Of a DNA stretch of 62,064 nt, positions 11,499 to 62,064 are shown piece by piece. The notes below the pieces were generated by a model. That model did not search any database. It was not told where the DNA came from and saw only the letters and a program-made list of their open reading frames with translations. Numbering within the stretch: the stretch's first letter is position 1; every line of letters begins with the position of its first letter. The DNA is taken from IMG/VR virus record IMGVR_UViG_3300015360_000003, positions 1-62,064 of that record; one strand, written 5' to 3'. Source of the DNA: a virus. Made by a program: the position numbers and the translations under genes.

Positions 11499-11563
11499 AT
11501 GGTAATGTACCGACTATCCTGCATATACCTCTCAAGTATAGCAGAGTACTAATTGAGTGACCA

Positions 11564-12154: not shown

Positions 12155-14606
12155 CAATATCTCTCCGTTCATGCGGGAAATGATTACGCAAAAACCCAAC
12201 GGTGATCTAGAGGCACCAGACAATATTTTAAAGACTGTTTCAGCAGCGTACCAGCAATACATATCGGTACGCGCAGGCGATATCGAGCGTATCGCCGTAC
12301 AGTCCGCAATCCTCGGTATGGTCGGCGGTAATCCTCCGTATGACCAGGATGAACTAGAGGCTAATGGCCTTGGGCATATTGCGAACTTTAATACTTTTAA
12401 AGGTCGGTCTTGGTATGAGAAAACCGCCCAGGGCTACTGGAACCTTATTAACTCTGCTGAAGTGTACGTCAAGGTAGAGGGCACACCTTCGGTTGCCCCA
12501 AATGTGCAGGACTGGTGCGACACGATGGCGCGTCACTACAGCGATGTGACAAAGATGTGGGAAGACTTCCAGCCGAATTTCAATCTGCTCGGCTCGCAGT
12601 TAACACTGTTCGGCATGTCCCCAATATTTTATCCGCATGAGGAGTCTCCACTTTGGGAAGTGGTAGACGTGAGCCGCTTTCATATTCCTGCACAAACGCA
12701 GGTCTTCATATCGAAGCTGTCAAACGTGTCGGTAGAGACTACGTACAGCATACAAGATCTGTACCAGATATATACAAAGTCAGATAAGTCAGGACCATGG
12801 AATAAAAAAGCCCTGGGCGATTACCTGTTGTTGTACGCCAACACGGTTTATCCAGAGACGATTAAGCAACCGTTTTCGATGGTAGAGCTTCAGCGCTTTG
12901 TCTCGAATAACGATTCCGCAGTGCAGCGGTACTTCACGGACACTGTTCGATTAGTAAATATGTACCAGAAAGAATACGACGGGAAGATATCCCACTACAT
13001 ATTCTCCCCTGATTTTTTTAGTTCCGCAGAGAAGAATACAGACTTAACAAGCGATTTCTTGTTCTTTAAAGACAGGCAGTACGAATCGATTGAAGAAGCA
13101 GTAATTATCTTCACAGCAAACCCTGGGGAGTGGACTATCCACGGCAATCTTGGACTGGGGCAAAAGATGTACGCAGCAGTCACGGCGATTAATATGCTCG
13201 ATTGCTCAATCTTAGATATGAGTAAGATGGCGTCTACGCCGCTTATTAAAACCCTTGCTACAGGCGGCAGGGAGTTTTCCGCAATTCGATTTACTCCAGG
13301 AGTAGCCACTGACATTGGGTCTGCGGAGTTTGTTCAAAATACGCTAGGAGTAAACATCCAACCAGCGGTCGTAGCCGCGCAGTACCTGACTCAAGGCATA
13401 GAATTAAACGCGGCGAACAGTGGCGATGACCCATCGTTTCCCGATAGAGCAACAGGATCTCTTGCTGCAGGAGAGGCTCGGAATAAAGCGATTAAGGAAT
13501 TCGGACCCCTTCGTAACGCAGTAGCGCATTTTTACAACACGTTCGATAAGCCAGTACGGACGACATTTATCCGGTTTTTAAAGATTGTAAAAGGCAGGTC
13601 GGATGTCCCCGGCTATGACTTAGCGGTTGAATGGCAGCGAAGATGTGTTGAAGACGGCGTACCGGACTTTATGTTCGATACGGTTAAGACCGGACTTCGG
13701 GGACTGCCGATACAGTTTAGAGACGTGCGAGCTACTAGGGCTGCAGGGGATGGATCAACGCTTGCCAGGATTATGGGCCTTGAGATGTTAACACCTGTCA
13801 TGGGCACGTTTGATGCCAAGGCGATTAATAACTACACGAAAGACTACGTGCTCGCGACAAACGGACCAGATTATGTTTCGCGGTACGTGTCTAACCAAGC
13901 GAATGATGAACTATCAGGCGGGGCATCATTAGCGCGTACAGAAGACAATCTGATGAAGCTCGGTCAGGAGCCGTTGTTTAGTGCAGACAATGATCAGGCA
14001 GCACACGGCGACGAGCACATGGGAACGGCCACGGCGGTTGTACAGGCTGTTGCACAGCAGCAGATGTCCCCGGTTGACGCGGATAAACTGATGGCGCTAA
14101 TGCTTCCGCATTTGACGGAGCACGTTCAGTTCATGTCGAAGTCTCCCCAGTTTTATCGGGACACTTTAAATGGGCTGATGGACCCGTATAAGCAGCTTGC
14201 ACAGTGGGCGCAGTTGAACCGTCGCAATGCCGAGGCAATGGTGCAGGCCGCGAAGCGTAAACAGCAAGAGGACGCCGCAGCCACTCAGCAGGTTATGGAC
14301 GACGCGCAGCGTAAAGATTTCGTCGCTAAGGCGGATGTGGCAAGGGCAGACGTTAAGGTGGCCGCGCAGAACGAGCGGGGCGATAGGGCGAACGATACCC
14401 GCGCACGTATCATGGAGAAAAAGGTAGACAGTGACGCAGATATAAAACGCAGGAAGGTAGAGCTTGAGGCGCAGATTAAGCAAGACGCCACAGCGATAGG
14501 CAGATCGCGAACAGAGTTAGCAGCAAAGAGCCAGGAAGAATTGTCAGCCCAGCTCTCTGGTATGATAGGCAGTACCCCATCAACTTCGGATTTTGAACCC
14601 CTATGA
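12144..14606 (+). CDS. portal protein
   Basis: The roughly 820-residue protein is the best portal candidate by position (first large gene after terminase, followed by scaffold and coat), size and composition. It has a mixed alpha/beta body with a long Ala/Gln/Lys-rich coiled-coil C-terminus from about residue 690 (QQMSP...QLNRRNAEAMVQAAKRKQQ...). Podovirus portals of 700-850 residues with a helical barrel-like tail fit this. It would form the dodecameric DNA gate at one capsid vertex. I used the ATG at 12144; a GTG at 12135 in the same frame is also possible. The stop overlaps the next ATG (ATGA). Confidence 0.8.
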   Translation: MQNNNISPFMREMITQKPNGDLEAPDNILKTVSAAYQQYISVRAGDIERIAVQSAILGMVGGNPPYDQDELEANGLGHIANFNTFKGRSWYEKTAQGYWNLINSAEVYVKVEGTPSVAPNVQDWCDTMARHYSDVTKMWEDFQPNFNLLGSQLTLFGMSPIFYPHEESPLWEVVDVSRFHIPAQTQVFISKLSNVSVETTYSIQDLYQIYTKSDKSGPWNKKALGDYLLLYANTVYPETIKQPFSMVELQRFVSNNDSAVQRYFTDTVRLVNMYQKEYDGKISHYIFSPDFFSSAEKNTDLTSDFLFFKDRQYESIEEAVIIFTANPGEWTIHGNLGLGQKMYAAVTAINMLDCSILDMSKMASTPLIKTLATGGREFSAIRFTPGVATDIGSAEFVQNTLGVNIQPAVVAAQYLTQGIELNAANSGDDPSFPDRATGSLAAGEARNKAIKEFGPLRNAVAHFYNTFDKPVRTTFIRFLKIVKGRSDVPGYDLAVEWQRRCVEDGVPDFMFDTVKTGLRGLPIQFRDVRATRAAGDGSTLARIMGLEMLTPVMGTFDAKAINNYTKDYVLATNGPDYVSRYVSNQANDELSGGASLARTEDNLMKLGQEPLFSADNDQAAHGDEHMGTATAVVQAVAQQQMSPVDADKLMALMLPHLTEHVQFMSKSPQFYRDTLNGLMDPYKQLAQWAQLNRRNAEAMVQAAKRKQQEDAAATQQVMDDAQRKDFVAKADVARADVKVAAQNERGDRANDTRARIMEKKVDSDADIKRRKVELEAQIKQDATAIGRSRTELAAKSQEELSAQLSGMIGSTPSTSDFEPL

Positions 14607-14956
14607 CGGCAATAGAGATTGAATTAAACAGGTTTCGTGGATCTACCGATGCGGTCAGATCATACACTGACGCTAAGAATGGACTGCTTAGGAGTGGTAT
14701 CTTAGGGATTCTGCGCCAGTTCGCCCGTCCGTTTACTCGTGACAATGGAGCGAATCCCTATTCCGCCGCGTATAGCGCAGGCGTGTCGGAAGGGTACAAC
14801 CGCTGTTTAGACGACCTTATCTATTTCGAGGAGATTTATCTCACTAATACTACAGGTAAGAAAAACGTATCCGCTAACTTCGGAGGCTACGCGCTGGCGG
14901 AAGCCCGTGGGGATTTAACAAAAGCTGAGACAGAGAGGTTAAAGGGTGGAAAATAA
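14603..14956 (+). CDS. hypothetical head-region protein
   Basis: The 117-residue product overlaps the portal stop by 4 bp and the next gene by 11 bp, so it is tightly coupled in the head operon. It is polar and helical, with RFRGSTDAVRSYTDAK near the start and SEGYNRCLDDL in the middle. It could be a portal or scaffold accessory protein. No family was recognised. Confidence 0.75.
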   Translation: MTAIEIELNRFRGSTDAVRSYTDAKNGLLRSGILGILRQFARPFTRDNGANPYSAAYSAGVSEGYNRCLDDLIYFEEIYLTNTTGKKNVSANFGGYALAEARGDLTKAETERLKGGK

Positions 14957-16211
14957 TACCGTGTACAAGCCGAAAGCGAACAGGGCGTTTGATGTTTTAA
15001 AGCGAGTCCCTGGAGGAGACAAATTAGTTCCCATGTCTCCAGTAGACGAGCAGGTCGTACCCCCTGTCGAGCACGCTGCGCCTCCTGCCGAAGTAGTGAG
15101 CGCTCCTATTATCGAGACAGAATATGATATCGATCCCCCGGCAGGGGCAGATACCCTTCCTAAGAATGTTATTCCAGCAGAGTTTGTTCCTGAAGATGCT
15201 ACAGATGAAGTCGATCAATTAATCGATAAGAACGCATCTACAGGGGAGAACTTTAAGAAGCTCCGTACAAAACTCAAAGCTGTGACAAAAGAGCGGGCGG
15301 TTTTCTCAGAGGAGCTAGAAGGACTTCGTAAAAAGGTTAAAGAGTACGACGACGGATTGGCGGTTCCTGATGTTACACAAAGACAGACAGATCGAATTAC
15401 CGAGCTTGAGAAGTACGAGCGCATTTATAATTTAAAAGCGTCCCCTGTTTATCAAGAGAAGATTGCGACTCCTTTAACAAAAGAGAGCGATAATCTTCAG
15501 ACATTGGCTACCGATCACACTGTTGAGGTATCGGATCTCCATAAAGCGTTTGGAGCAGCGACAGATAAAGAAACGAACCAGATGCTGATGCAGGCATTTA
15601 AAGGAGATGAGGTCGCCGTACTAGATGCCAAGGTAATCTTTAAAAACATCAAACGTATTCAGAATGACTCTCGCGCACTAGAGTCCGATGCACAGACATC
15701 TTTTACACGGATGCAAGAAGACAATGATCGAATACTTGCTGAGAAGCAGCAAAAGGCAAACGCCTCAATCGTACACGCCTCGCGGGGGGCGTGGTCCGAC
15801 TCGTTGGCGGAATTACGCACGGACAGTAGGTTCAGAGAGATTCAATATGTAGAGGGGGACACAGAGCATAACGAAAGGTATGTGCGCCCAATCTTAACGA
15901 AAGCCGCACAGGAGTATGGTCGTACGATTAGTATCCTGGCTCAACACGGACTGACCGAACTACCAAAAGAACTAGCGATGAAGTTCGCACGAGCGGATCA
16001 GCTGGCGCATTACTCAGCTGTTCTACTGGTCGAAAAAAACAAACTCGCGGTAGAAAACACCGAGCTAAAGTCACTCCTTAAATTACGTGGATACCTCAAT
16101 AACCCCAGCATAAACGGCACTGGTGCTAGCTCCTCCTATAGCGAAAAGACGGGCGCTGTCGGAACGAAAAACGTAGGAGCCAAAGTGCTTGATCGCGTCA
16201 TGAATAAATAA
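14946..16211 (+). CDS. scaffolding / capsid assembly protein (putative)
   Basis: The 421-residue, highly charged protein has a Pro/Glu-rich disordered N-terminus (about 35-90), several coiled-coil segments (KLRTKLKAVTKERAVFSEEL near 105; KNKLAVENTELKSLLKL near 375) and a short basic C-terminal tail (KVLDRVMNK). Position between portal and coat and the coiled-coil plus basic-tail plan are typical of internal scaffolds that guide procapsid assembly and then leave. It is assigned by context and composition, not by a specific motif. Confidence 0.75.
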   Translation: MENNTVYKPKANRAFDVLKRVPGGDKLVPMSPVDEQVVPPVEHAAPPAEVVSAPIIETEYDIDPPAGADTLPKNVIPAEFVPEDATDEVDQLIDKNASTGENFKKLRTKLKAVTKERAVFSEELEGLRKKVKEYDDGLAVPDVTQRQTDRITELEKYERIYNLKASPVYQEKIATPLTKESDNLQTLATDHTVEVSDLHKAFGAATDKETNQMLMQAFKGDEVAVLDAKVIFKNIKRIQNDSRALESDAQTSFTRMQEDNDRILAEKQQKANASIVHASRGAWSDSLAELRTDSRFREIQYVEGDTEHNERYVRPILTKAAQEYGRTISILAQHGLTELPKELAMKFARADQLAHYSAVLLVEKNKLAVENTELKSLLKLRGYLNNPSINGTGASSSYSEKTGAVGTKNVGAKVLDRVMNK

Positions 16212-16367
16212 GCTTTACAAGCTATTCGTTTTCAGACAACAATACCTGTATCCAGGTACTCATCCCTGCGTATAAAGATTCTTCTCTCTTCGGGAACATC
16301 TAACTTGTTCCTGTGATTACGCAGATCCTCAATTTCCAAATACAAATCTTTAAGAGGTTTACTCTTT
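16212..16367 (+). promoter_or_regulatory. leader upstream of the major capsid gene
   Basis: This 156-bp gap is the longest in the head operon. It contains GGAACA-TCTAACT-TGTTCC (about 16291-16309) and a ribosome-site-like AAGAGG before the ATG at 16368. A dedicated promoter or mRNA processing signal for coat expression is likely, but I cannot name a promoter sequence. Confidence 0.35.
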
Positions 16368-18260
16368 ATGTCATCGTGTCAAAACACTACCGATACTTTC
16401 AACCAGGCGTTCCTCGCCGGTACACCGGACATCGCCGCCGAGATTCTTGATTACTCCTTCAACATGCCGATGTGGATGGCGGACTTGTGGGAAATCAAGC
16501 CTTGGACCGCTGCCGATAACGCTATGCAGCAGATTATCTTCCGAGGATCGCTGCCGGAAATCGAGCAGGGGTTTGATCGGTGGAAGAAGCTTGCCTCTTC
16601 GGCAGGCTGCGAGCCTTGCACAAATGACTGCTCTTATAACTTCACGACATTTGCCGGGCACGGATTCAGCCGTCAGATGGTCGCGCTCATGCGCCGTGAG
16701 TTCAAGACGGACCCTTACTGTGTAAACGAAATCAAGACGGCCCTGGAGTTCAGTTTCACGTTCGGAAAGATTATCGAGAACATCCAGAAGCAGGTTGCGT
16801 TCTTCAAAGACTTCAACATCGGCCAGAATTTCTTGACGGGTATCGCCAAGAAGCTCGTCGTTGATGGGGGCGGTCTTAAAGGTAACCCAGTTAACCCATA
16901 CGAGTATCGTTCAAAAGGTACCGCAACGCTGTCGAAGTTTAACTTCCGCATGTTGACCAAGATTTATGAGGGTATGCGCCGCCGCTCTGACGTAGTTCCG
17001 TTCATGATTCAGGACAGTAAGCCGCTCTATGCAGTGTCGGCCTCTGATGAATTGATGGACGCGCTCTATATCGAAGATGCCAATGCGCGTGCCGATCTTC
17101 GGTTTAGCTCAGGTTCGGATGCGCTACTTACGAAGTACAACTTCATGAGTTCCGTCCGTGGACAGTTCATGAACGTCCCGATCTTGTATCCGCGACGGTT
17201 TAACTGGGTATCAAGCGAATGGGTACAGGTTTACCCGTTCGTTAACGGTATCCCAGCAGAAGTCGGCGAGTTCTCCGATTTAAATCCGGCGTGGGAAGAT
17301 GCTGATTACGAAGAGGTTCTTGTTTACGGTAAATCACCGTTTGAAGTTCTCTATCGTGACCAGCTGACAACGATTGGCGAAGGAACGGAGTTCGGTCCTG
17401 AGCCTTCGTTTATGAATACGTGGCTCTGGGTTAATATCCAGACTGATTGTGACGTATTCCGTCGTAGCGGTTACTATGCCACTTCGATTGAGATGGCACT
17501 TTCGCAGCAGTATTCAGGAGGCATCTACGGAATCATGGTTCCGCGACCGTCCGACGCTCTGATTGCTTCGTACTATCCTGCGGCAGTATGTCCGCCGGAT
17601 GACGTTGATTGTGAAAACGAGGTACCGGCGATTACTGCGTGTCCGTGTCCGTTCGTCTTGACTGCTGTTGCCGATGCGTTTAACCCAGGTCGTTACACGA
17701 TGACCTTCGGGGTACCGATTGACGTAGCCCCAACGGACCCTATCTCGATTGCGATTGGCACTGGTGGGTATCTTACCGGCACTGTGTCTGCAATTACGAC
17801 AGACGGGACGACGCTATCGATTCAGTTTGCTGCAAATACTGTAATCAGTAATTGCACAGGCTTTACGGCAGTGTTCTGCGACGACACTCTTGGATGTACA
17901 TCGACGGTGCTTACTACCTGCGATTGTCGTGCTGGTGAAGTCGGAAGCTTCAAGGTCATCTTGGAGAATCCGATTAAAGCAGTCACGGCTGCGGATATCA
18001 TCACGGGATACATGGGTGATGGTACTACGCAGAACTTCGCGGTTGTGTCGGTCGATATGGTCAGCAACACCTGGGTGCTGGAATACGCGGCTGGATACGG
18101 TCCGACAGATGACGAAACGGGGGCAGGTAGTACTGGCCTTGAGACGGACATCGTGTGTGACCGTAACGGTATCGTACGGGTCTGTGTGCCAACGGCTACG
18201 GACGCTACATGCGGGGCATGTGGAAATGGTCCGGTAATCACGGCCTGCGTAGAGAGCTAA
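16368..18260 (+). CDS. major capsid protein with Cys-rich C-terminal Ig-like extension (putative)
   Basis: The 630-residue product follows the scaffold, has its own leader and is followed at once by an intrinsic terminator, as expected for the most abundant virion protein. Residues about 1-410 would be the HK97-like shell domain (inferred). From about 425 the protein changes to a Thr/Val/Gly beta-rich composition with repeated AVTAADIITGYM-like strands, resembling one or two Ig-like or BIG-like domains. It contains many Cys, mostly after residue 415 (CPPDDVDCENE, CPCPF, CTSTVLTTCDC, CGACG). So many surface cysteines in a coat protein are unusual and might crosslink or bind metal. Confidence 0.75.
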   Translation: MSSCQNTTDTFNQAFLAGTPDIAAEILDYSFNMPMWMADLWEIKPWTAADNAMQQIIFRGSLPEIEQGFDRWKKLASSAGCEPCTNDCSYNFTTFAGHGFSRQMVALMRREFKTDPYCVNEIKTALEFSFTFGKIIENIQKQVAFFKDFNIGQNFLTGIAKKLVVDGGGLKGNPVNPYEYRSKGTATLSKFNFRMLTKIYEGMRRRSDVVPFMIQDSKPLYAVSASDELMDALYIEDANARADLRFSSGSDALLTKYNFMSSVRGQFMNVPILYPRRFNWVSSEWVQVYPFVNGIPAEVGEFSDLNPAWEDADYEEVLVYGKSPFEVLYRDQLTTIGEGTEFGPEPSFMNTWLWVNIQTDCDVFRRSGYYATSIEMALSQQYSGGIYGIMVPRPSDALIASYYPAAVCPPDDVDCENEVPAITACPCPFVLTAVADAFNPGRYTMTFGVPIDVAPTDPISIAIGTGGYLTGTVSAITTDGTTLSIQFAANTVISNCTGFTAVFCDDTLGCTSTVLTTCDCRAGEVGSFKVILENPIKAVTAADIITGYMGDGTTQNFAVVSVDMVSNTWVLEYAAGYGPTDDETGAGSTGLETDIVCDRNGIVRVCVPTATDATCGACGNGPVITACVES

Positions 18261-41926: not shown

Positions 41927-43062
41927 TGTCTGAATCCTGGATTAACCGTTCCAATTTTATTGTTACCTGCCCACACTTCAAGCACGGAAACACCTGCAAT
42001 CTGTGTAATGCGGAAACCATACACACCGAAGTAGTATCGTCTCCTACCGTCCGCAAACGGCTGTGAATCCTCGCTCTCGATGATCTTCTTACCGGCTGCC
42101 CGAAGCTCGATACGCCTAGCAGAAATCGGGAAAATAAAAACAGGCTTTAACGCACGCGACTCTGGCGGGACCGTATGCTGGTCCGACTTCGGCTTCACGA
42201 GGTACCTGCTATTTGGCAGGCGCACGTCCCCTTGAAAGGTGGATAGAAACGCTTCTGCCTTTAAAAGATTCTGGGTAGGCCATGCCCGTCTCTTCGGTCG
42301 TGGTGTCGCATCATTTCGGTTGAACCGTCCGTTATTCTGCGATGTCCAGAAAAAGAAGAGGGCCGCATCTTTGAACCGCTGCTTGAGCGTCTCAGTATTG
42401 TAATCAAAACAGTCGGAGCCATCGTAGTTAAAAACATACTTCCCGCCGATGTTCGGAGGCCGTGCGTCTGCACCGTGGACCTCGTTCCAGATACGAGAAT
42501 TCGGTTTAATGAAAGCTCCCTTCCCTACCCATGGATTATTTATATACACGCAGCGTTCTGGAATTACAGCGAGCACTAGGTTTGCTAGGTCCGTTGCGTC
42601 GGTAACCTTTAGCTGGTGCTCAGTCATGCCGGAAAAACCACATCCGACGTTCGGGTACTTTGCTGCTAGTTTCGCGTACTTCCTCGCTTCGGTGACAATA
42701 GCAGGGAAGTCCCTTCGCGATACGCTATGTGTGTCCGACCAGCGGAGGTTATAAATCTGAAACGGGACTTTCCCGGTGCCGAGCAGAGCGTCGATTGAGC
42801 TGTAGGCATCCCCGAAAGTGTTTGTAAATTGTGAGTTCGCAAACCCCGGAGGATGCGCCTTCACCATTATCGCTTTGTATTTCGCGCCCCCCAGATTCGC
42901 GATACCCCACAACGGAGTCGGTACGGCTACACGAATCAGCGGCAGCGTACTCTCCTGGTCTTTGGGCGGTATGTTCTCGCCCAGGTCTGGAGGTAGTGGT
43001 GCCTTAGACGTGCAGGATACTAAGAGGAGAAAGAGAAGGCTTTTTTTCCAGTGGCTACACAT
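41923..43062 (-). CDS. lipoprotein of unknown function
   Basis: The 379-residue product has a type II signal peptide (MCSHWKKSLLFLLLVSC) with lipobox LVSC at residues 14-17, predicting lipid attachment at the envelope. The mature part has NNPWVGKGAFIKPNSRIWNEVHG and YNYD-like strands that recall extracellular hydrolases or glycosidase-like barrels, but no catalytic motif is certain. The C-terminal 90 residues look like a separate beta-sandwich. AAGGTGA lies 3-4 nt before the ATG, and the start overlaps the protease gene by 43 bp. It may act with the protease in superinfection exclusion or lysis. Confidence 0.65.
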   Translation of the reverse strand: MCSHWKKSLLFLLLVSCTSKAPLPPDLGENIPPKDQESTLPLIRVAVPTPLWGIANLGGAKYKAIMVKAHPPGFANSQFTNTFGDAYSSIDALLGTGKVPFQIYNLRWSDTHSVSRRDFPAIVTEARKYAKLAAKYPNVGCGFSGMTEHQLKVTDATDLANLVLAVIPERCVYINNPWVGKGAFIKPNSRIWNEVHGADARPPNIGGKYVFNYDGSDCFDYNTETLKQRFKDAALFFFWTSQNNGRFNRNDATPRPKRRAWPTQNLLKAEAFLSTFQGDVRLPNSRYLVKPKSDQHTVPPESRALKPVFIFPISARRIELRAAGKKIIESEDSQPFADGRRRYYFGVYGFRITQIAGVSVLEVWAGNNKIGTVNPGFRQ

Positions 43063-43685
43063 GCTTCACCTTGCTGCTTTAAAAGAGTTGAGAGATCGTC
43101 GTAGGAAATAATACATTTTCCATCCACCCCCCAGGTCTTACCCCAGCTGTTGTGTAGCTCTATGTACTTATCGTTAACGTCCACACCTGTCGCGAGCAGG
43201 GCGTGTCCGCCGACAAGAGCGCCGGTAGGTTTAATGAAGCCGTAGTCTGTCGGCTTAAACATATCGCTGTACCAGTTAATCCCAAGTGTCACGGGACCCA
43301 CCTGCCCAAGCGCTATGATTAAATCATCAAGTCCGAACGCCCAATGATAAGACTGTATCGCGTTGGGGTACTGTCTGCGGACGGCTTTAATACCTGCTAA
43401 AACCGACGTGCCTTCGTACTCAGTACCAGGGATGGCATCTAGGCGCTGTGCTAATTGGTATGTAGCGACCGCTTCTTTCTCCGTAAGCCCCGTGGATGCT
43501 TCAGGGTCTGCTAGCAGGAAGTGGGTCCAAGAAAAACCGACGCAGGCCGATAGTAAACCCTGGTCTAGATAGGTGCTGCAGTCCCAAAACTTTGTAACAG
43601 GAAACGGGGAACCGACCAGATTTCGTACTGAGAACGACCGGCTATGGTTGTCGAACTTTGGTATACGGCCAAGTTTAAGTGCCAT
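43020..43685 (-). CDS. papain-like cysteine protease (family C1)
   Basis: The 221-residue product has the C1 triad in order: Gln and Cys in DQGLLSACVGFS (Q42, C48), His in GGHALLATGVD (H161) and Asn in LHNSWGKTWG (N179). GPVTLGINWY and a GFIKPTG segment also match papain-like folds. It lacks a signal peptide, pro-domain and the usual first disulfide Cys, so it probably acts in the cytoplasm or virion. Papain-like proteases occur in some phage genomes but their targets are mostly unknown. It lies 50 bp beyond an intrinsic terminator, so its expression may depend on read-through or a local promoter. Confidence 0.85.
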   Translation of the reverse strand: MALKLGRIPKFDNHSRSFSVRNLVGSPFPVTKFWDCSTYLDQGLLSACVGFSWTHFLLADPEASTGLTEKEAVATYQLAQRLDAIPGTEYEGTSVLAGIKAVRRQYPNAIQSYHWAFGLDDLIIALGQVGPVTLGINWYSDMFKPTDYGFIKPTGALVGGHALLATGVDVNDKYIELHNSWGKTWGVDGKCIISYDDLSTLLKQQGEACVATGKKAFSFSS

Positions 43686-44643: not shown

Positions 44644-44858
44644 TTTAGTAACTCCTTTGTGTACGCGTTAAGTTCTTCCAACATCTGATCTAGTACTCTG
44701 CATCCTTCATCCTCTGAAAGAGCGGTGAGTGATGTATTCACACTGAGCATGTGTGCTACCCCACAATAGAAATACTTACGACACTCTGCTCTCTGAATAG
44801 CTGATGCTGTGTTTGGTATAGCTAGAGCCTCTAATAACTTCCACGCTTTCTCTATCAT
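44640..44858 (-). CDS. hypothetical protein
   Basis: The 72-residue helical product (MIEKAWKLLEALAIP) overlaps the polymerase stop by 4 bp and the next start by 4 bp. It has no recognised motif. A polymerase accessory role is possible by position only. Confidence 0.65.
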   Translation of the reverse strand: MIEKAWKLLEALAIPNTASAIQRAECRKYFYCGVAHMLSVNTSLTALSEDEGCRVLDQMLEELNAYTKELLN

Positions 44859-46729
44859 AACTCGGCCTTAATATCGCCCCATTTTAATCCGCAGGCAGCG
44901 TCGGCCACCTCATGTGATACGGCGTTAGGGAACAGCTCCTTCATAGCATCATTCATAGACGCTGCCAATATATCTTTTGCCTTATCAGCGTGCTTCTTGT
45001 GAACGTGTAAGAGGATTTCATCGTGTACCGTGGCAATAAGTACGCCGATCCCGTGTATTCGTTTATGACAAATAACGAGTGCTCTCATCATAAGCTCGGC
45101 GGCAGAACCTTGGATGACCGTGTTCGGTCCCCGTGTGTACAACTCCGTCTCGGTTAATTTCCTGCGCTTCCCTAGAAGAGTTTCGATGTAGCCAAGCTGC
45201 TCTGTTCGTTTTCTGATCTTGTTGCACCAGCTAGAATAGACGCGGAACATACTATGGTACGTCTTATGCGCCTTCTGAAAGAATTCAAAAGGCTTAATGA
45301 TGCCTACGTTTGCACAGTATTGTTGAAACTTCGCTGGCCCCATTCCGTATCCGAGCGCCAACATACAAATCTTCCCTGAAAAACGCTCCGCTAGATCTTT
45401 TTTTGTAATTGGCCTGCCAAATAGGGACGACCCCAGCGTACAGTAAATGTCCTCTTTATCCCTGTAGGCCGCGCACATCACAGGGTCGCGAGAAAATTCT
45501 GCCTGTAGCCTCAACTCAATCTGAGAGAAGTCGCTCACTACTAGTACGTGATCTTTATCGGCTACGAACATGTTACGGAAAGCTTTATCACGAGGAAAAT
45601 TTTGATTGTTAGGATTACGCGATGATAATCGACTCGTCCTCGTTTCCCCAATCGTATACGACGTATGCAGTCGCCCGGTAATCGGGTGCTTCTTTTCAAT
45701 TAGCGACTGGCCGTAGGTGTCGATGAGTTTACTATACTGCTTGTATTCAAGTAGCGCTGCAATAGAAGGGAGGTGGGCGTATGCCGTGATTACATTCTTA
45801 CCAAAAGCAAACTGCCCTTTCTTTGTCTTCGGCCAGGCAAGTAAATCTTTTGGAGAATCCTTAAGATATACTTTAAGCCACTCGTTCATTTGCTTACCAC
45901 TCTTCATGTTGGTATCACCAAAGAACGGCTTGCATTTTTCTAACGCGAGGGCTGACTGCTTCTCCCACCCAGCGATTAAGTTTTTATGGTACTTCCAATC
46001 GATAGGTAAACCTTCAAGCTGCATCCTCGCAACAACATGCTGTATTTCTTTTTGCTGTTGATACGCTTTAGTCATCTTATACTCGACGATCTTTTTAGAC
46101 AGTACGAGTGCTGCCTCATAAGTGAGCAGAGCATCTAGAGCTGCGTACACTATTTGATCCTGCGACAAAACTTTCGCTGCCCAATCCGATACCTGCTGCG
46201 TCTTAGATACCTTCACCCCAAATAGTCTCTGTGTAACAGCATCTAGGCTGTGGCCGCCGCGAGTTCTGTACTGAGCCAAACCTGTTTTATCTTCGTCGTC
46301 TTCCTCGTCTGGTTCGTATGGGGAGTACTCTGCCCCTTCTAGTAACTGCGACAGGAGCATAGAACAGCCGCAATTAATATCTAAAATCCCTGCGTGTGTA
46401 AGATGCACGATTTCAAAGACTGCACAATGAGCAACGAACCTGCCTTTCGATAAGAAAGGCGCTAGAAGTTTTATAGGAATCTTAAACAAGTCGAACACGT
46501 AGATATTACGGTCAGGAGTATGAACTTGTAGGAGTCGTATGTTTGAAAGCCGGGGATCTAGTCCTGCCTGAGTATGCTCAACATATTCAGGCTTCTTAGC
46601 TGTCTCGATATCAAGACCGCAGAGTTTATCGACAGGTATCTTTTTTAATATCCCAGGAACTTCGTCTTTGTCCGTAACGTAGTGAGCTTTAAAGGTCCAG
46701 GTATGAAACTTATTTTTCGTTGTTTTCAA
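44855..46729 (-). CDS. DNA polymerase I-like (family A) with 3'-5' exonuclease
   Basis: The 624-residue replicative polymerase. The N-terminal proofreading domain has Exo I LCGLDIETAK (D40, E42), an Exo II block near VAHCAVFEIVHL and Exo III YAALDALLTYE. The palm and fingers show motif A VVSDFSQIELR (about 400), motif B KICMLALGYGMG (about 456) and motif C TVHDEILLH (about 570). It lacks a 5' nuclease domain, as in T7-type enzymes. It overlaps LpxR and the 44640 gene by 4 bp each. Confidence 0.95.
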   Translation of the reverse strand: MKTTKNKFHTWTFKAHYVTDKDEVPGILKKIPVDKLCGLDIETAKKPEYVEHTQAGLDPRLSNIRLLQVHTPDRNIYVFDLFKIPIKLLAPFLSKGRFVAHCAVFEIVHLTHAGILDINCGCSMLLSQLLEGAEYSPYEPDEEDDEDKTGLAQYRTRGGHSLDAVTQRLFGVKVSKTQQVSDWAAKVLSQDQIVYAALDALLTYEAALVLSKKIVEYKMTKAYQQQKEIQHVVARMQLEGLPIDWKYHKNLIAGWEKQSALALEKCKPFFGDTNMKSGKQMNEWLKVYLKDSPKDLLAWPKTKKGQFAFGKNVITAYAHLPSIAALLEYKQYSKLIDTYGQSLIEKKHPITGRLHTSYTIGETRTSRLSSRNPNNQNFPRDKAFRNMFVADKDHVLVVSDFSQIELRLQAEFSRDPVMCAAYRDKEDIYCTLGSSLFGRPITKKDLAERFSGKICMLALGYGMGPAKFQQYCANVGIIKPFEFFQKAHKTYHSMFRVYSSWCNKIRKRTEQLGYIETLLGKRRKLTETELYTRGPNTVIQGSAAELMMRALVICHKRIHGIGVLIATVHDEILLHVHKKHADKAKDILAASMNDAMKELFPNAVSHEVADAACGLKWGDIKAEL

Positions 46730-47538
46730 TGTATAGTTAGTGAAATTTCGCCAAAGTCTGCGGCATCCCCGCCGACATACTCAGGACTCATTTTTATATA
46801 TGTATACGAAAACTTATAGTCTCCGTACTCAAGGCTAATACCTGCCCGACCTTCTGCTACAAACGGATACTTATCAACCGACCGCGAATCTTTAAAAGTG
46901 TTGCCGTCTAAGAAGATATTTCTGGCTACTCCTCGCCCGTACACTCCTGCGAAAAATCCTATGTTTAGTCCTTCTCTTAATCTAATCCGTGGGTACAGGC
47001 CATCAGGAGCATCCTTGTAAAGTACACCAATTGTAACCTGATCGAACATGTTCCCAACATCAAATCGTACGTCGGTTAGGATATTTCCGGCGACTCTATC
47101 TTGCAGCTGTCTTGAAATATTGATGCCGGGTTCATCTCGAAGCTGGTAGTCCCATCCTTGGGGGAACGATTGTCCCAGGAATCTATGCACGGTGCGCTGC
47201 GTTTGCTCGCTAAAAGAGCTTGGTCCAACAACACCGAATTCATAGCCCCATACACGTCTCGTGTGATCTTCTCCAATGTCGGTCTGGGTGAATCCCGCAA
47301 GAAGCGCTCCTGCGTATGGACGCTCGTTAGATAGTGGTATGTGTAGTCTTTTGTGATTTGGGGTGTAAAAAATTTGTCTGGCATAGTATCGATCACCCGC
47401 CTCACCAGCTTCTGCACCCGTGCTAACTTGTAATCCTTGAGTGAAATTACGGTCGTTATTTTGGGTGGGTTTAAAGATGTCATTCGCCTCCGTTATTGTA
47501 CATCCGCATAGAAATAGACTTAGTAAAGTACGTCTCAT
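46726..47538 (-). CDS. lpxR-like: LpxR-like outer membrane lipid A 3'-O-deacylase
   Basis: The 270-residue product has a signal peptide (MRRTLLSLFLCGCTITEA). The mature N-terminus NDIF (N19, D20) and the segment NFTQGLQVS (T33) match the LpxR/DUF2219 active-site strand. NERPYAGALL (71-80), GPSS...QTQRTVHRFLG (H118) and GWDYQLRDEPGINI (128-141) follow in the family order. The alternating polar/hydrophobic strands to the end fit a 12-strand barrel. LpxR removes the 3'-acyloxyacyl group of lipid A in some Gram-negative bacteria. In a phage this could alter LPS to block superinfection, change host immune visibility or prepare lysis. It is embedded in the DNA polymerase operon. Confidence 0.85.
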   Translation of the reverse strand: MRRTLLSLFLCGCTITEANDIFKPTQNNDRNFTQGLQVSTGAEAGEAGDRYYARQIFYTPNHKRLHIPLSNERPYAGALLAGFTQTDIGEDHTRRVWGYEFGVVGPSSFSEQTQRTVHRFLGQSFPQGWDYQLRDEPGINISRQLQDRVAGNILTDVRFDVGNMFDQVTIGVLYKDAPDGLYPRIRLREGLNIGFFAGVYGRGVARNIFLDGNTFKDSRSVDKYPFVAEGRAGISLEYGDYKFSYTYIKMSPEYVGGDAADFGEISLTIH

Positions 47539-48781: not shown

Positions 48782-48795
48782 CCAAAACTATACAC
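48685..48795 (-). CDS. 36-residue small protein
   Basis: This short frame opens on GTG inside the last codons of the methylase gene (GTGTAT overlapping its TAG) and ends at 48685. It reads MYSFGTVLRCEGGGIALCLL, then YGGTLVKEYTISLRG. Balanced composition and start/stop coupling support it. No recognised family. The weak ribosome site lowers confidence. Confidence 0.5.
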   Translation of the reverse strand: MYSFGTVLRCEGGGIALCLLAYGGTLVKEYTISLRG

Positions 48796-49270
48796 TTAAA
48801 TCTTTATAATTAACATAAAATATATTTGCCTGCGTCTTTTTAGTATACAGTCGCGGCTTGCATACCATCACAGCGGAAGGAAAATTAGCGCAGTTGTCGG
48901 CACCGTTAAACTTTATCCTGTGTGAGACGATCCGAATCTCGTCCATTTCTGCAGCGGCTAATACCCCGTGCTTAGTGGAGGGGTCATACTTAGTGACAAA
49001 CACGGTAGTTGCCCCGTTCTGATCTCGCTCCTCTATAGCCTTCGTATACCAAGGCAAGATGTTGGAGTAGGGAGGATTACAAAAGTTAACCTTACCCCAA
49101 CCGTGTTTTAAGCCGTCATGCTTTTCTGTGAGGTACTCAGGGCGTTTATGATTCTTTCTAGACGCACATACATCCAGATTAAACTTAAACTCATCATGTA
49201 GTATTTTAAACATCCACTGTGGTGTTGCCTGTTCATCGCTATCCGGCTCTGTAGATCGTTTAAACTTCAT
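48788..49270 (-). CDS. dam: phage DNA N6-adenine methyltransferase (Dam type)
   Basis: The 160-residue product matches the compact phage Dam family. TPQWMFKILHDEFKFNLDVCA (16-36) binds the target/AdoMet region and FCNPPYSN (63-70) contains the NPPY motif of N6-adenine methylases. It probably methylates GATC, so the GATC-bearing repeats at 8836-8918 could be a target and restriction enzymes may be avoided. It overlaps the 49267 gene by 4 bp. Confidence 0.9.
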   Translation of the reverse strand: MKFKRSTEPDSDEQATPQWMFKILHDEFKFNLDVCASRKNHKRPEYLTEKHDGLKHGWGKVNFCNPPYSNILPWYTKAIEERDQNGATTVFVTKYDPSTKHGVLAAAEMDEIRIVSHRIKFNGADNCANFPSAVMVCKPRLYTKKTQANIFYVNYKDLSV

Positions 49271-53134: not shown

Positions 53135-53737
53135 TTACTCAGCCTCCGCCAGTCGCATCATGTCCGCCAGCGCAACCTCGTTGGAGTCGAAAAACCGTGT
53201 GGGCGAAATCTCGTAGCCGCTAGCCCTGTAAATCTGCATTGCCGCGAATAATGGGGATGTTCTCGCTTCGAGATCGTAACCGGACGGGCCTGCGAGGTGA
53301 ACAGCCCAGCCCGCACGACAGTGGGTCGTCTCGCACACATGCCACCGCTGCATATCGAACGAATCAGGCGTGGCCATCGCCGCAGCAAGCACTGCTTTAT
53401 GAATATCGGGGATGATCGGAATCTTTATTTTTTCGCTTTTTTCGTCGTCGCAGCGGTAGCAGCGGTCCACGCAGTGGTAGCAGCGGGAGCAGCGGGAGCA
53501 GTCATTGCAGTCGTCGCAGTCGTCGCAGTCATCGCAGTCATTGCAGCGGTCACAGTTGGAACAGTTGGAGCAGTCGAGGCAATCAACACAACCGACACAC
53601 TCGACACAATCTCGGCAATCGAAACACTCCATCAGCGTCGCGAGTGAAGCCCGCGCAAGCGCTTCACTTCCCCATTTTTCAATCGATGCTCGGTTGCCGC
53701 TGCCATCGTCGGAGGTTATCCAAGTTTTGCTTTCCAC
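53135..53737 (-). CDS. protein with cysteine at every third residue plus C-terminal HCRAGW domain (paralogue 3)
   Basis: The 200-residue product has the shared N-terminal module (GNRASIEKWGSEALARASLA), then 18 strict C-x-x steps (CFDCRDCVECVGC...) and a short irregular end (VDRCYRC). Unlike the two left-end copies, it continues into a C-terminal domain (about 100-200) with MQRWHVCETTHCRAGWAVHL, IYRASGYEISPTRFFDSNEV and ADMMRLAEAE. I recall this domain joined to Cys-repeat tracts in other phages, without known function. The domain itself has conserved Cys and His and may share the metal-binding theme. Confidence 0.8.
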   Translation of the reverse strand: MESKTWITSDDGSGNRASIEKWGSEALARASLATLMECFDCRDCVECVGCVDCLDCSNCSNCDRCNDCDDCDDCDDCNDCSRCSRCYHCVDRCYRCDDEKSEKIKIPIIPDIHKAVLAAAMATPDSFDMQRWHVCETTHCRAGWAVHLAGPSGYDLEARTSPLFAAMQIYRASGYEISPTRFFDSNEVALADMMRLAEAE

Positions 53738-54660: not shown

Positions 54661-55317
54661 CTAAACGATACTGTCCTCGTCGCCGTCTTCTACTTCTGGC
54701 GCGTTGCCTACGTCTTCCAACTCTTCCTCGATTTCCTCAATCGTCGAATAGAGCGCTGCATTACCCTGTCCATACCCTTCGCCGACCTTAGCAAACTGCA
54801 CTCCGCGAAGTGAGAAACTCACGCCCGGAACGATCTGCTTGTTGCCGTCGTACGGATAGACTGCAACATGTAAACGTCCCCAATCGCCGCCTTTGATCTC
54901 GCCGACTTCTTCTTTCGTCAAAACCGGAAACACGCCATTGACCTTCCGAGGTCCAAGGACAGTCGGAGGACGATTTTTAGGGTCGTCCTTCTTACCGGCC
55001 TTAGCTCGCATCATGATGCAGTTTTTCTGCGCCTCCATCGCCACGTCGTCGTCTTTATCGGTATCCTTAAGCGGGATGCGATACTTAGCGGACGTGAGCT
55101 TAAAGTCAGTGCCGAAATGGTCCCGTCCGACCTGCAAAACTGCTTCCTGAAGCGCTTTGCCCTTATCCTTAAAGATCGCCTTCGGAGTGAACAGGTCCGT
55201 CTTAAACTGTCCGTCACTGTACTGTCTGCCCCTATCAGGCTCGGCGAAATACGGAAAACTAAACTGTCCAAGCGGTGTCCAAATCAGCACCTGCGGCTTC
55301 TTCTCTTTTGTTGCCAT
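54661..55317 (-). CDS. ssb: single-stranded DNA-binding protein (DUF2815-like)
   Basis: The 218-residue product has the layout of phage DUF2815 SSBs. VLIWTPLGQFSFPYFAEPDRG (about 10-30) is followed by TDLFTPKAIFKDKGKALQEA, IMMRAKAGKKDDPKNRPPTV, and SFSLRGVQFAKVGEGYGQGN. It ends in an acidic tail (EVEDGDEDSIV) that typically contacts partner proteins. It would coat ssDNA during replication and recombination with the exonuclease next to it. Confidence 0.8.
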   Translation of the reverse strand: MATKEKKPQVLIWTPLGQFSFPYFAEPDRGRQYSDGQFKTDLFTPKAIFKDKGKALQEAVLQVGRDHFGTDFKLTSAKYRIPLKDTDKDDDVAMEAQKNCIMMRAKAGKKDDPKNRPPTVLGPRKVNGVFPVLTKEEVGEIKGGDWGRLHVAVYPYDGNKQIVPGVSFSLRGVQFAKVGEGYGQGNAALYSTIEEIEEELEDVGNAPEVEDGDEDSIV

Positions 55318-58015: not shown

Positions 58016-58024
58016 TCTTGTATT

Positions 58025-58060
58025 CAATGTGTACATTGTATACCTTGTATACATTGTCCA
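58025..58060. promoter_or_regulatory. 10-bp-spaced GTATAC operator-like repeats in the divergent region
   Basis: Units around 58028-58034 (TGTGTAC), 58037-58043 (TGTATAC) and 58046-58052 (TGTATAC) recur about one helical turn apart between the divergent SNF2 and ribbon-helix-helix genes. Another TGTATAC lies at 58081-58087 just before the RHH ATG. Probable binding sites of a small repressor. Confidence 0.55.
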
Positions 58061-58091
58061 TCTTGTTTCCGGCCTGGTACTGTATACCCCG

Positions 58092-58247
58092 ATGACTAAC
58101 CCCGAACAACCACAATCTTTCAGCGTAACGGCGCGTGTTTCACACAGGCTTTACAAAAAACTTAAATCGGAGTCTAAATACCGTGACCGCACGATTTCCC
58201 GCTTAATAGCTAAAATACTAGGTAAACATTTTAAATGTTCCTTATAG
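58092..58247 (+). CDS. small ribbon-helix-helix-like DNA-binding protein
   Basis: The 51-residue product reads MTNPEQPQSFSVTARVSHRL, then YKKLKSESKYRDRTISRLIA. The strand SFSVTARVS followed by helices fits Arc/MetJ-type repressors. The adjacent GTATAC repeats could be its operators, giving control of the divergent replication genes. The ATG at 58092 lacks a clear ribosome site. It overlaps the 58235 gene by 13 bp. Confidence 0.65.
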   Translation: MTNPEQPQSFSVTARVSHRLYKKLKSESKYRDRTISRLIAKILGKHFKCSL

Positions 58248-58543
58248 CCCCTATTCCTGTCGCCTGGTTCAACGACGACTTATCGAAAAAAGCCTGCGTC
58301 CGTTTCGAGATCCGACTCATCAAAGCAAAAGACTGGATTGCGTTAGAGACGCTGGCCGGTTTAATTCTTCCTATCGATTTCGACCTGCGGCAGTACTTGT
58401 CGAAAAACATGCTCCACGCCATTTACTTCAAAACGGATACCAGCAATGTCCTCATTCACCCGGACGCGCTCCTTAAACTCTGCAAAAGAACTATTAAGCA
58501 ACGAATCAAGCGAGAGCGAGTTTCTCCTAGAAGATTGCACTGA
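58235..58543 (+). CDS. hypothetical protein upstream of the primase-helicase
   Basis: The 102-residue product (MFLIAPIPVAWFNDDLSKKA) is strongly basic at its C-terminus (KRTIKQRIKRERVSPRRLH). The last 98 bp overlap the primase gene in another frame. It could be a DNA-binding accessory protein for the origin. Not recognised. Confidence 0.6.
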   Translation: MFLIAPIPVAWFNDDLSKKACVRFEIRLIKAKDWIALETLAGLILPIDFDLRQYLSKNMLHAIYFKTDTSNVLIHPDALLKLCKRTIKQRIKRERVSPRRLH

Positions 58544-60836
58544 TCATACGGCGGCAGCGAAAGAAGGAATCGATTTTCTTTTCGACTCCTTCCCGTACGC
58601 TATCCACACCTTTCAATATATTAAAAAATCGGAATCGGCCAAGCTTGTAACTCCGGTCCGCACGTACACCGATAAAGCCGCCGCTTGTAAAGATGCGTTG
58701 CTCTATAATCAAAGAGGCTACGACGTTTTTTTCATGGTTAATGAAGGCGACGGCGTTATTCACGACGGAAAACAAACGCCGCGTTCGCAACTATCGGTCC
58801 AATACCTGTCGAAGTGTTTTATCGACACTGATAACTGCCCGATTGCTAAAGTCGAGGCGTATCTCAACGATATCGGGCTGACTCCTCACATCAAAATATG
58901 CTCTTCGCCTAATCGATATCACCTGTACTTCGACTTCTCCCCTGTTCCGAAAACCGATGCCTCTGTTTTTAAATGGAACACGATACAAAACATGCTGCAT
59001 CGGCTAGGCGATCCATCGATTAAAAATCCCACGCAAAAGCTGGGGATGGATAAGACGATGCGCGATCACTCAAAGATCCTGCGCGTCCCTGGCTTCTCAC
59101 ACATTAAAAAACTAGCCCTCGTCGCTGTATCCGAGATCTCTACCGTCCCGCCGTATACACTCGATCAGATCTTTGAATTGACAGACGCCCAATCATATCT
59201 CGACTACAATGTGCAAACCTACGGAACCGCCGAGCCGTCAAACGTCCCCGATCTGGCCGATACCTCTATCCTGCCTGCGGGCGAACGCTTTTCAGCCCTG
59301 CAATCCCTGTCGCTCCACTTAGCTAATACCGAATCGGACCGCGAAACGGCGTACTCTCTATTTGATAACTTCGTCCGCAACCGACTAGATAATACCGACA
59401 GTGTTTACTACACGGACAAGTTAACGCCTAAATCGCTCGCTCTATTCAGCTCCGCGTTCGACAAGGTAAAAGCCGAGAACTTACACATCGTACAGTCCTT
59501 TCCGCTCGACGACGGAAGCACTCCTGCCCCGTGGCATCTCCCTGACTCTTTTTACCTGTCGGCCCCGAACGGATTCGGGGACATTGTAAAACAGGTGATG
59601 GATAACTCTTTATATCCCTGCGCTGCCTTGGCTTTCGGCACCTTCCTAGCGGGCCTCTCGATACTAAAATCAAAGACTCACTTAACCCCTAAAGGTTCGT
59701 CGCCTGCCCTGTACATTATCAACGTGGCGATCAGCGGCTACGGCAAGAACGATCCGATGACTTTCCTGCAAAACACTCTTTGGCACTACGGCTATGGTAA
59801 GTTAATCGGAAACGAGATCCGGTCTGATCGCGGCGTCTACGAGCATCTGGCCGCCAATGATGGGTTGGGGTTTTTTCTACTCGACGAAATCGGTCCCCTG
59901 CTTAGTTCCATCCAGGAGGAATCGGCCTCTACTCACCTGGCCTATATCGCGAAGGCGTTTTTACAGCTCTATTCCTCCGGGGCCATGCGGGGAATATCGT
60001 TTGGGAAGACGGCCAAGGCCAACTCTAAGAAAGGCGAGCCGGAACTCGTTCTCGATAACCCAATGGCGGCTATTTGCGGATATACGGTGCCGTCGAAATT
60101 CGCCACCCTTTTTAACGCCGATTCGGTCAATCAGGGCCTGTTCCAACGCTTCATTCCGATAGTTCCTGAAATCTTGCGGGTGCCTGAAAACGACAACGCC
60201 AACAAGTTTGCAATTATCACCTCTCCTCTCTTTGTTCACGCGTCTATTCCTGTTGAACTCGACTCAGAGGGGAACGCGGTTGAGGCTATACAATCCCTGC
60301 CTCGTGTCTCAATCGCATACACCCCTGACGCTCTAAAGGAGTTTAAGCGGCTATCTGACCATTATAGGGATCTCTTGATTAGCTCCGCCAACGATGCCGA
60401 GAAGGCCCCGTATTCGGGCCTCTATAGCCGCCTGGCCGAGCAGATTGAGAGGGTTGCCACTGTACTATCGGCGACCGTGATAGACCTGCCCACGCTAAAC
60501 TACGCGGCGGAGTTTATCGAGTCCCGTCACAGGGCAATTATGGCGCTCGCCGATTCAACGGTTCTCAAGACCAAGGGCAGCGAGAATATTCAGAATGAGG
60601 CCCTTATTCTGAATACGATTGCCCTGATGGCGCGTGAGCTCGAAACCCCGGTCATTTTTAAGACCGAGCTATACCGGCGTGTGCGGCGTAGTTTTGCCAC
60701 GATGAAGCAGTTTGATACCGCGTTGGCCGACGCCGCCGAGCTGCGGCGTATCGTTATGGTTCCAAACTACAAGCGATCTATGGTTAAAGGCGCTCGCCCT
60801 GGGTTGGGAGTAATGTTGGGCGACCTGCTCGACTAA
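58446..60836 (+). CDS. primase-helicase (RepB-like primase plus DUF3987-type ATPase)
   Basis: The 796-residue product combines an N-terminal archaeo-eukaryotic-type primase with a C-terminal helicase. The primase half has CFIDTDNCP (124-132, metal-binding Asp pair), CSSPNRYHLYFDF (about 153-165) and MRDHSKILRVPGFSH (about 205-219). The helicase half (from about 370) has a P-loop-like AISGYGKND (about 427-435), a LLDEIGPL Walker B (about 478) and ARKAL-type sensor residues. This fusion is common in phages and plasmids with a dedicated origin. It ends 40 bp before the iteron region, fitting an initiator role. Confidence 0.85.
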   Translation: MSSFTRTRSLNSAKELLSNESSESEFLLEDCTDHTAAAKEGIDFLFDSFPYAIHTFQYIKKSESAKLVTPVRTYTDKAAACKDALLYNQRGYDVFFMVNEGDGVIHDGKQTPRSQLSVQYLSKCFIDTDNCPIAKVEAYLNDIGLTPHIKICSSPNRYHLYFDFSPVPKTDASVFKWNTIQNMLHRLGDPSIKNPTQKLGMDKTMRDHSKILRVPGFSHIKKLALVAVSEISTVPPYTLDQIFELTDAQSYLDYNVQTYGTAEPSNVPDLADTSILPAGERFSALQSLSLHLANTESDRETAYSLFDNFVRNRLDNTDSVYYTDKLTPKSLALFSSAFDKVKAENLHIVQSFPLDDGSTPAPWHLPDSFYLSAPNGFGDIVKQVMDNSLYPCAALAFGTFLAGLSILKSKTHLTPKGSSPALYIINVAISGYGKNDPMTFLQNTLWHYGYGKLIGNEIRSDRGVYEHLAANDGLGFFLLDEIGPLLSSIQEESASTHLAYIAKAFLQLYSSGAMRGISFGKTAKANSKKGEPELVLDNPMAAICGYTVPSKFATLFNADSVNQGLFQRFIPIVPEILRVPENDNANKFAIITSPLFVHASIPVELDSEGNAVEAIQSLPRVSIAYTPDALKEFKRLSDHYRDLLISSANDAEKAPYSGLYSRLAEQIERVATVLSATVIDLPTLNYAAEFIESRHRAIMALADSTVLKTKGSENIQNEALILNTIALMARELETPVIFKTELYRRVRRSFATMKQFDTALADAAELRRIVMVPNYKRSMVKGARPGLGVMLGDLLD

Positions 60837-60876
60837 AAAACCTGTCCTTTCCTGTCTTTTCTGACATTTTCAAACG

Positions 60877-61258
60877 TCCAAAATAGAACAACTGGAAAAC
60901 AAGCGTGTACAGAAGGACTGTTTTTGTACACTCTTGATTTCTTGATACACTCTTGATTCGGAACAAAGCCATAGTATCATTAAGAAAAATCAAGAGTGTA
61001 CAAAATCAAGAGTGTACGGGGGGTATGAGTGTTTCTCTCCCAAAAGGAGAAGAAAGTAAAAACTTTCTGAAAAACGCGACACTCTTGTTTTTTGATTTTC
61101 ATTTATTTATAAATATATGATATTATTATATATATGTATATATAAGAGGGAATCAAGAGTGTATCAAGAGTGTATCAAGAGTGTACAGAAACACTGTTTC
61201 TGTACACTCTTGATTTCCAGGTGTTCTATTTTGGAAAAAACCAGGTGTTTTCAAGTGT
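60877..61258. other. probable replication origin: inverted iteron array with AT-rich core
   Basis: The motif ATCAAGAGTGTA(C/T) or its reverse complement occurs about nine times: near 60927, 60943, 60989, 61006, 61152, 61163, 61174 and 61203, plus a degenerate copy at 61079. The outer parts (about 60877-60958 and 61142-61250) are imperfect inverted copies sharing CCAAAATAGAAC and the iteron pairs. They flank an AT-only tract (about 61086-61143). Iterons plus an AT-rich unwinding region next to a primase-helicase gene form a classical origin. No gene is seen in 60837-61250. Confidence 0.75.
61174..61214. repeat. 41-bp near-perfect palindrome within the origin region
   Basis: Two 20-bp arms (61174-61193 and 61195-61214) pair perfectly around one central base. 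Each arm is one iteron plus AGAAAC. It could extrude as a cruciform or form a terminator-like RNA hairpin. Confidence 0.8.
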
Positions 61259-61841: not shown

Positions 61842-61895
61842 GTTTTCTCCTTTAAAATGTGAGAGCGGGGGACAGGGGCGAGAGGGGGACAGGGG

Positions 61896-62064
61896 CGAGC
61901 GTGGCAGGTGGGTAATCATCGGTTAATCCCATGTGCGAGAGGGGGACAGGTGGGTAATCATCGGTTACTGCCATGTGCGAGCCTTCGAGCGTGGCAGGTG
62001 GGTAATCATCGGTTAATCCCATGTGCGAGCCTTCGAGCGTGGCAGGTGGGTAATCATCGGTTAA
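61896..62064. repeat. 48-bp tandem repeat array, right end
   Basis: A partial unit (to 61926), a 42-bp variant (61927-61968, with GAGGGGGACAGG replacing the GCCTTCGAGCGTGGCAGG part) and two full units (61969-62016, 62017-62064). The last unit is identical to the first 48 bases of the window and in register with it. Upstream, 61863-61895 has shorter GAGGGGGACAGGGGC repeats. Confidence 0.95.

Follow-up and report, generated by a model that had tools for sequence, protein, structure and literature searches.

An iteron cluster next to an AT-rich element characterizes the lambda-type replication origin, and phage P4 combines a multidomain primase-helicase, the alpha protein, with an iteron-containing origin. 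In the PICI/SaPI satellites, two iteron sets flank an AT-rich region, always two in the E. coli PICIs, and a PICI pri-rep-ori fragment supports plasmid replication (PMC6092414); the P4 alpha protein and its cognate ori are cited in the same work (PMC6092414). The lambda iterons are tandem repeats located inside a replication gene (PMC11447400). Furthermore, DUF3987 domains that occur in fusion with primases have been predicted to be mobile-element helicases (PMC5862659), and in the PICMI satellites, a family partly defined by DUF3987, the primase is needed for normal replication (PMC10803314).

The pri-rep-ori module is the closest published arrangement to an array of ~360 bp in the 62,064-base record of an uncultured phage (IMGVR_UViG_3300015360_000003; the whole record is the window analyzed here), where two iteron sets likewise flank an AT-rich region. 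The original prediction described this locus as plasmid-like rather than T7-like, which is fair, although the pri-rep-ori of the satellites is the closer match. Unlike PICI/SaPI, the record represents the genome of a tailed phage that encodes a family-A polymerase of its own and virion-type genes, with no integrase found, and hence is not a satellite; moreover, its primase-helicase is of the RepB_primase/DUF3987 type, and the flanks of the array are inverted copies of ~85 bp that include palindromes. The locus resembles the P4 ori/crr in the combination of a multidomain primase-helicase with an iteron-containing origin but, in contrast to P4, the array is single, compact and located beside the gene, and the primase-helicase matches DUF3987/RepB_primase in Pfam. 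As in the lambda-type ori, the iterons adjoin an AT-rich element, whereas, unlike those of lambda, they are inverted and intergenic.

The array lies between the convergent stops at 60836 and 61251, 40 bp from the end of the primase-helicase gene. It is very probably the site where the phage begins to copy its DNA: the genome changes strand bias at this point, and the same layout, at the same place but with different letters, is present in a distant relative, L022 (IMGVR_UViG_3300032884_000110, 12.6 kb). The array and the relevant genes are the following:

44855–46729: family-A DNA polymerase
54661–55317: Enc34-type ssDNA-binding protein
58092–58247, plus strand: 51-aa protein, possible regulator, in which a ribbon-helix-helix-like pattern was recognized by eye
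58235–58543, plus strand: small protein (P0002), with a 27% identical counterpart adjoining the L022 primase
58446–60836, plus strand: RepB_primase-like/DUF3987 primase-helicase (P0001), candidate initiator and helicase
60876–61236, unstranded: putative replication origin, the whole array, with iterons, inverted flanks, AT tract, strand-adjusted skew switch and a syntenic array in L022
61251–61919, minus strand: lytic transglycosylase (SLT) gene, convergent with the primase gene

The primase-helicase matches the Pfam family PF13148 (DUF3987; 8e-9) and phrog_3022 ('DNA primase'; 2e-30); its match to RepB_primase (PF16793; 2e-4) is weak and below the curated Pfam cut-off. The replication module to which it belongs also holds an SNF2 helicase, a DUF2800 exonuclease, the Enc34-type ssDNA-binding protein and the family-A DNA polymerase. 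The divergent promoter between the genes for the SNF2 helicase and the 58092 protein contains tandem 9-bp TTGTATACA-like repeats (58018–58066), a probable operator.

The virion-type content consists of a terminase-like protein with Walker A/B motifs recognized by eye, along with tail-fibre and SLT matches. The region 9627–18260 encodes the terminase-like protein, an 823-aa protein and other structural proteins without PHROG matches, and tblastn of the terminase-like and capsid-like proteins against 50,697 phage records gave no match; taken together, these results suggest a deeply divergent lineage. Other genes include an LpxR-family outer membrane protein (lipid A deacylase family; 46726–47538, minus strand; PF09982, E 4e-51), an unusual cargo for a phage, and a match to papain-family cysteine proteases (43020–43685, minus strand; PF00112, 4e-6). 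Three paralogues, all on the minus strand (1593–1967, 2339–2833 and 53135–53737), share the N-terminus WITD..NRASIEKWGSE.LARASL, which is followed by long repeats with a cysteine every three residues (NCNDCARC...), and have no Pfam match. A Dam-type adenine methyltransferase is encoded at 48788–49270 (minus strand; PF05869, 4e-26), yet the array contains no GATC.

Within the array, the elements are arranged as follows:

60876–60960, unstranded: left inverted flank with the CCAAAATAGAAC box, a degenerate iteron at 60898+ and iterons at 60927- and 60946-
60898–60938, unstranded: two head-to-head iterons that form an imperfect palindrome (DNA fold -10.3 kcal/mol, z -4.3)
60986–61017, plus strand: two direct iterons, 60989+ and 61005+, with a 16-bp period
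61018–61023, plus strand: G-run GGGGGG
61078–61089, minus strand: degenerate iteron AACAAGAGTGTC adjoining the AT tract
61085–61145, unstranded: AT-rich tract, putative DNA unwinding element, with the lowest-GC 60-mer of the record
61150–61236, unstranded: right inverted flank with tandem iterons at 61152+, 61163+ and 61174+ (11-bp period), an iteron at 61203- and the GTTCTATTTTGG box
61174–61214, unstranded: perfect palindrome with 20-nt arms and a 1-nt centre, two head-to-head iterons (-19.3 kcal/mol, z -9.2)

The iteron ATCAAGAGTGTA occurs in eight exact copies, five on the plus strand (60989, 61005, 61152, 61163 and 61174) and three on the minus strand (60927, 60946 and 61203), all within 288 bp (60927–61214) and nowhere else in the 62 kb record, a concentration far beyond chance. 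In each of these copies, position 13 is occupied by C or T. When up to two mismatches are allowed, the whole record yields 14 matches, compared to 4.6 expected and a maximum of 9 in 100 shuffles. Two degenerate copies, AACAAGCGTGTA at 60898+ and AACAAGAGTGTC at 61078-, bring the total to ten over 60898–61214, in good agreement with the original prediction of about nine copies on both strands. That prediction also viewed the two flanks as imperfect inverted copies of each other, and this is borne out: the 62-nt arms 60877–60938 and 61174–61235 are 89% complementary, and the left half aligns globally to the reverse-complemented right half with a score of 167.5, the maximum in 300 shuffles being 85. 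The alignable part of the flanks, ~85 bp, contains CCAAAATAGAAC at 60879–60890 and its complement at 61223–61234. When windows are scored by the number of inverted 10-mer pairs 80–320 bp apart, the array ranks first in the record with 104 pairs, the next separate window having 18 and shuffled sequence 3.7 on average (maximum 11). Both ends of the array are marked by palindromes of head-to-head iterons, imperfect at 60898–60938 and perfect at 61174–61214.

The AT tract predicted to separate the flanks is indeed present between them, but it is neither AT-only nor central. A/T accounts for 55 of the 60 positions at 61085–61144, i.e., 5 G/C compared to 13 in the next lowest 60-mer of the record, and the segment 61095–61145 (51 nt) has at most 3 G/C; there is no pure A/T run of at least 25 nt in the core, and the tract is shifted against the primase-distal flank. 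As is typical of iteron-type origins, a short repeat is thus confined to one locus and adjoins an AT-rich element with a putative role in unwinding.

The 41-bp palindrome at 61174–61214 folds strongly and might instead mark a packaging, recombination or hairpin-telomere site. We consider this extremely improbable given that neither a telomere resolvase gene, as in N15-like hairpin-telomere phages, nor a tyrosine integrase was found in the record, that the terminase-like gene is ~11 kb away, and that the end repeats of the record are located elsewhere. The latter belong to a 48-bp tandem repeat array, TCCCATGTGCGAGCCTTCGAGCGTGGCAGGTGGGTAATCATCGGTTAA, of ~7 copies (61850–62064 and 1–196), which lies ~0.6 kb past the origin-like array and runs over both ends of the record. 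The ends share an exact 48-bp terminal repeat in register with these tandem copies, which yields a circular map; because the shared repeat lies inside a tandem array, it is not proof of circularity.

On the circle, cumulative GC skew has its minimum at ~60.5–61 kb and its maximum at ~41.0 kb. Gene direction can cause a raw skew minimum, and therefore strand and codon position were separated out, using a logistic skew model with terms for both. The best origin under this model is at 60.5 kb (delta log-likelihood 39.8), with the terminus at 41.0 kb, and the array centre, 61.05 kb, reaches 38.4. With automatic ORF calls, the skew origin is the same (delta 48.6) and the loss at the array is 1.0, so that for both gene sets the array is within 1–1.4 log-likelihood units of the best position. 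The observed score was reached in none of 300 permutations of 1-kb blocks, and in 69% of block bootstraps the origin fell at 60.0–61.5 kb. The array is located at a replication-associated switch of strand asymmetry, and the skew inflection by which the original prediction proposed to check the origin is where it was expected.

The same switch is apparent at 4-fold sites, where the coding-strand (G-C)/(G+C) is +0.110 (n=3163) for genes transcribed in the direction of a fork leaving the array, compared to -0.078 (n=1069) for head-on genes. The values for the two genes next to the array are negative, -0.065 for the primase gene (plus strand, to the left) and -0.030 for the SLT gene (minus strand), as are those of the minus-strand genes to the right of the array. 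Transcription does not explain the flip because the flanking genes converge on the array, and transcription alone predicts the opposite switch. A terminus facing the origin would lie at ~30 kb, whereas the skew places it at 41.0 kb, so that the two arms measure 20 and 42 kb; the operon switch at 40.2 kb may account for part of this offset.

Given the location between the convergent stops 60836 and 61251, with each palindrome facing one gene, the array could also be thought of as a terminator or regulatory zone in which transcription arriving from either side would end at the palindromes and the iterons would serve as operators, and one terminator-like site is indeed found within it (60905–60931). 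Terminator-like sites are, however, present at a frequency near chance (2 found compared to 0.9 expected) and the stems are AT-rich; moreover, termination requires neither ten spaced iterons nor an AT tract, and the skew switch would be unexplained. The conservation in L022 of the inverted array, rather than merely of a hairpin, likewise speaks against this possibility, which we regard as improbable.

L022, the only syntenic relative found, was first reached by a scan with a conserved C-terminal segment of SNF2. It encodes homologues of the primase-helicase (36% identity over 776 aa), the SNF2 helicase (44%), the DUF2800 exonuclease (43.5%), the ssDNA-binding protein (48%) and the small protein P0002 (27%), along with an SLT protein, and has the same gene order as the record, SNF2 – P0002 – primase – array – SLT. 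The interval of L022 bounded by the primase stop and the SLT gene, which is convergent here too, holds an inverted array with 11 exact copies of a different iteron, CTTANNGGTGT, in which, for example, the segments 2968–2993 and 3220–3245 form an inverted pair with 226 nt between them. The inverted-pair score is 110 for this array and 13 for the next window. Thus, in the sole syntenic relative found, an inverted iteron array is located at the same place, and the original prediction, which named absence from close relatives as the result that would count against it, is supported on this point as well as by the skew switch.

The similarity extends to the internal layout. The lowest-GC 60-mer of the L022 locus (5/60 G/C) is inside its array, and the AT tract is 266–326 bp past the primase stop in L022 and 249–309 bp past it in the 62-kb record. 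In both, the tract is preceded by a G-run, which in L022 is longer (GGGAGGGGGTGGGGG) and lies between the inner iterons and the tract, and is followed by three or four tandem iterons and then the terminal palindrome. The sequences differ: tandem CTTANNGGTGT iterons of L022 have a 12-bp period compared to the 11-bp period of ATCAAGAGTGTA in the record, and plain DNA alignment is poor. GTGTAC is common to many of the iteron copies. The correspondence in the order and orientation of the iterons is only suggestive, being matched by 28 of 400 random placements. Conservation of position and layout with a change of letters fits a co-evolving protein–DNA pair.

Two further features of L022 are of note. 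A small XRE-type helix-turn-helix protein (by eye) is encoded between its array and SLT gene (2739–2942, plus strand), and no counterpart was noticed at that place in the record; at 11541–12634, 12-bp repeats of GGCAAC/GGCGAC/GGCTAC directly precede an RNA ligase gene (PF09511, 1e-12).

Other searches for relatives yielded little. No near-identical DNA was found among phages, the iteron patterns of the array had no match across viral_contigs, and single-protein scans with segments of the primase, polymerase, terminase and DUF3987 domain gave no match. Apart from L022, scans with the two-member primase alignment retrieved only two proteobacterial contigs; these have just the N-terminal domain, and neither has a comparable array.

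These observations argue for a theta mode of replication from the array that is probably bidirectional, as judged solely from the two arms having skew of opposite sign. We consider it likely, on the whole, that 60876–61236 is the origin, that an initiator, most probably the adjacent primase-helicase, binds the iterons, that the AT tract melts and that two forks depart. Specifically, the phage-encoded initiator, perhaps helped by small neighbouring proteins, would bind the iterons of both flanks; the adjacent AT tract (61085–61145) would melt; and a hexameric helicase would be loaded in both orientations. The leftward fork would then proceed through 60.8–41 kb and the rightward fork through 61.3–62.06/0–41 kb, with synthesis by the phage's own family-A DNA polymerase and Enc34-type ssDNA-binding protein.

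We infer that the primase-helicase is the likeliest initiator. It is the most economical choice because its gene ends 40 bp from the array, because it unites primase with helicase domains, and because searches of the record for a DnaA or Rep_3 initiator found none. The array itself has no exact DnaA box (near-matches with one mismatch exist). Structure prediction for the primase-helicase from the single sequence, i.e., without an alignment, gave a mean pLDDT of 34 and modelled no binding domain. Alternatively, the array would be an origin at which the iterons are bound by one of the small proteins encoded at 58092 and 58235, or by a host protein, the primase-helicase being only recruited. The retention of the 58235 protein next to the primase in L022, the ribbon-helix-helix-like pattern of the 58092 protein and the use of a separate origin-binding protein by lambda-type origins (PMC11447400) are compatible with such a division of labour, whereas it is an argument against it that no DnaA or Rep_3 initiator gene was found in the record and that the array has no exact DnaA box. 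The 58092 protein in particular has no family match, its single-sequence model consists of one helix, with no ribbon-helix-helix fold, and tblastn did not find it in L022, which does have the array. A separate binder therefore appears unlikely, albeit as an alternative with some weight.

Par loci typically contain 11-bp tandem repeats to which ribbon-helix-helix proteins bind. With its 11-bp tandem iterons and the candidate protein of this type encoded at 58092, the array might accordingly be seen as a partition centromere or a copy-control iteron locus of a plasmid-like phage. This is very improbable: no ParA-type ATPase, the partner of a ParABS-type centromere, was found in the record (the ParM-type search had no working control), nor was an integrase, the array is unlinked from the 58092 gene, and the skew switch would be unexplained.

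Returning to the origin with the primase-helicase as its putative initiator, we compared the record with 8 distantly related phages that encode DUF3987 primases (~22–26% identity by tblastn). In three of these, the non-coding region beside the primase has the top inverted-repeat score of the genome: Sa179lw (22, shuffle maximum 12), phiHSIC (19, maximum 9) and 13VT501A (51, maximum 19). The region also comes first, but by a narrow margin, in Vibrio 1.005.O and Rovert, ranks fourth in YenS_P400 and sixth in H188, and by this scoring NV1.1.1 has no such array beside its DUF3987 primase. As in the record, inverted iterons surround an AT-rich non-coding region beside the primase gene in Sa179lw, phiHSIC and 13VT501A, but the iterons are unrelated (GCATTTTTCC in 13VT501A) and the array is upstream of the primase, as opposed to downstream between convergent genes. 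The Sa179lw iteron, CTATTTGCCA, occurs four times in one direction and then three times in the opposite one (++++---), and the strand-adjusted skew origin of this phage falls in the repeat region (loss 0.7). In the remaining DUF3987 phages, the strand-adjusted origin is weak or disagrees with the repeat region, clearly so in YenS_P400. The cumulative-skew minima of five comparison phages were dropped as evidence since gene direction can cause them and, with strand controlled, only Sa179lw agrees. A five-member DUF3987 alignment proved too divergent for scanning, and a blastn match to a phage primase gene was rejected as a 26-bp chance match inside coding sequence.

By extension, and only tentatively, the DUF3987-type primase-helicases of tailed phages and satellites might constitute one class of initiators that need no other protein to recognize and melt the origin and to load the helicase, every member having its own fast-diverging inverted iteron array beside its gene.

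Origins of tailed phages have been mapped in few lineages, and DUF3987 is still listed as a domain of 'unknown function' in Pfam. If the interpretation proposed here is correct, the locus would provide a compact, testable origin–initiator pair for a phage without a close isolate. The record and L022 would then represent two diverged natural versions of such a pair, in which the iterons would be recognized only by their own primase-helicase. There would also be a simple rule for where to seek the origins of other phages and satellites that encode a DUF3987 primase-helicase.
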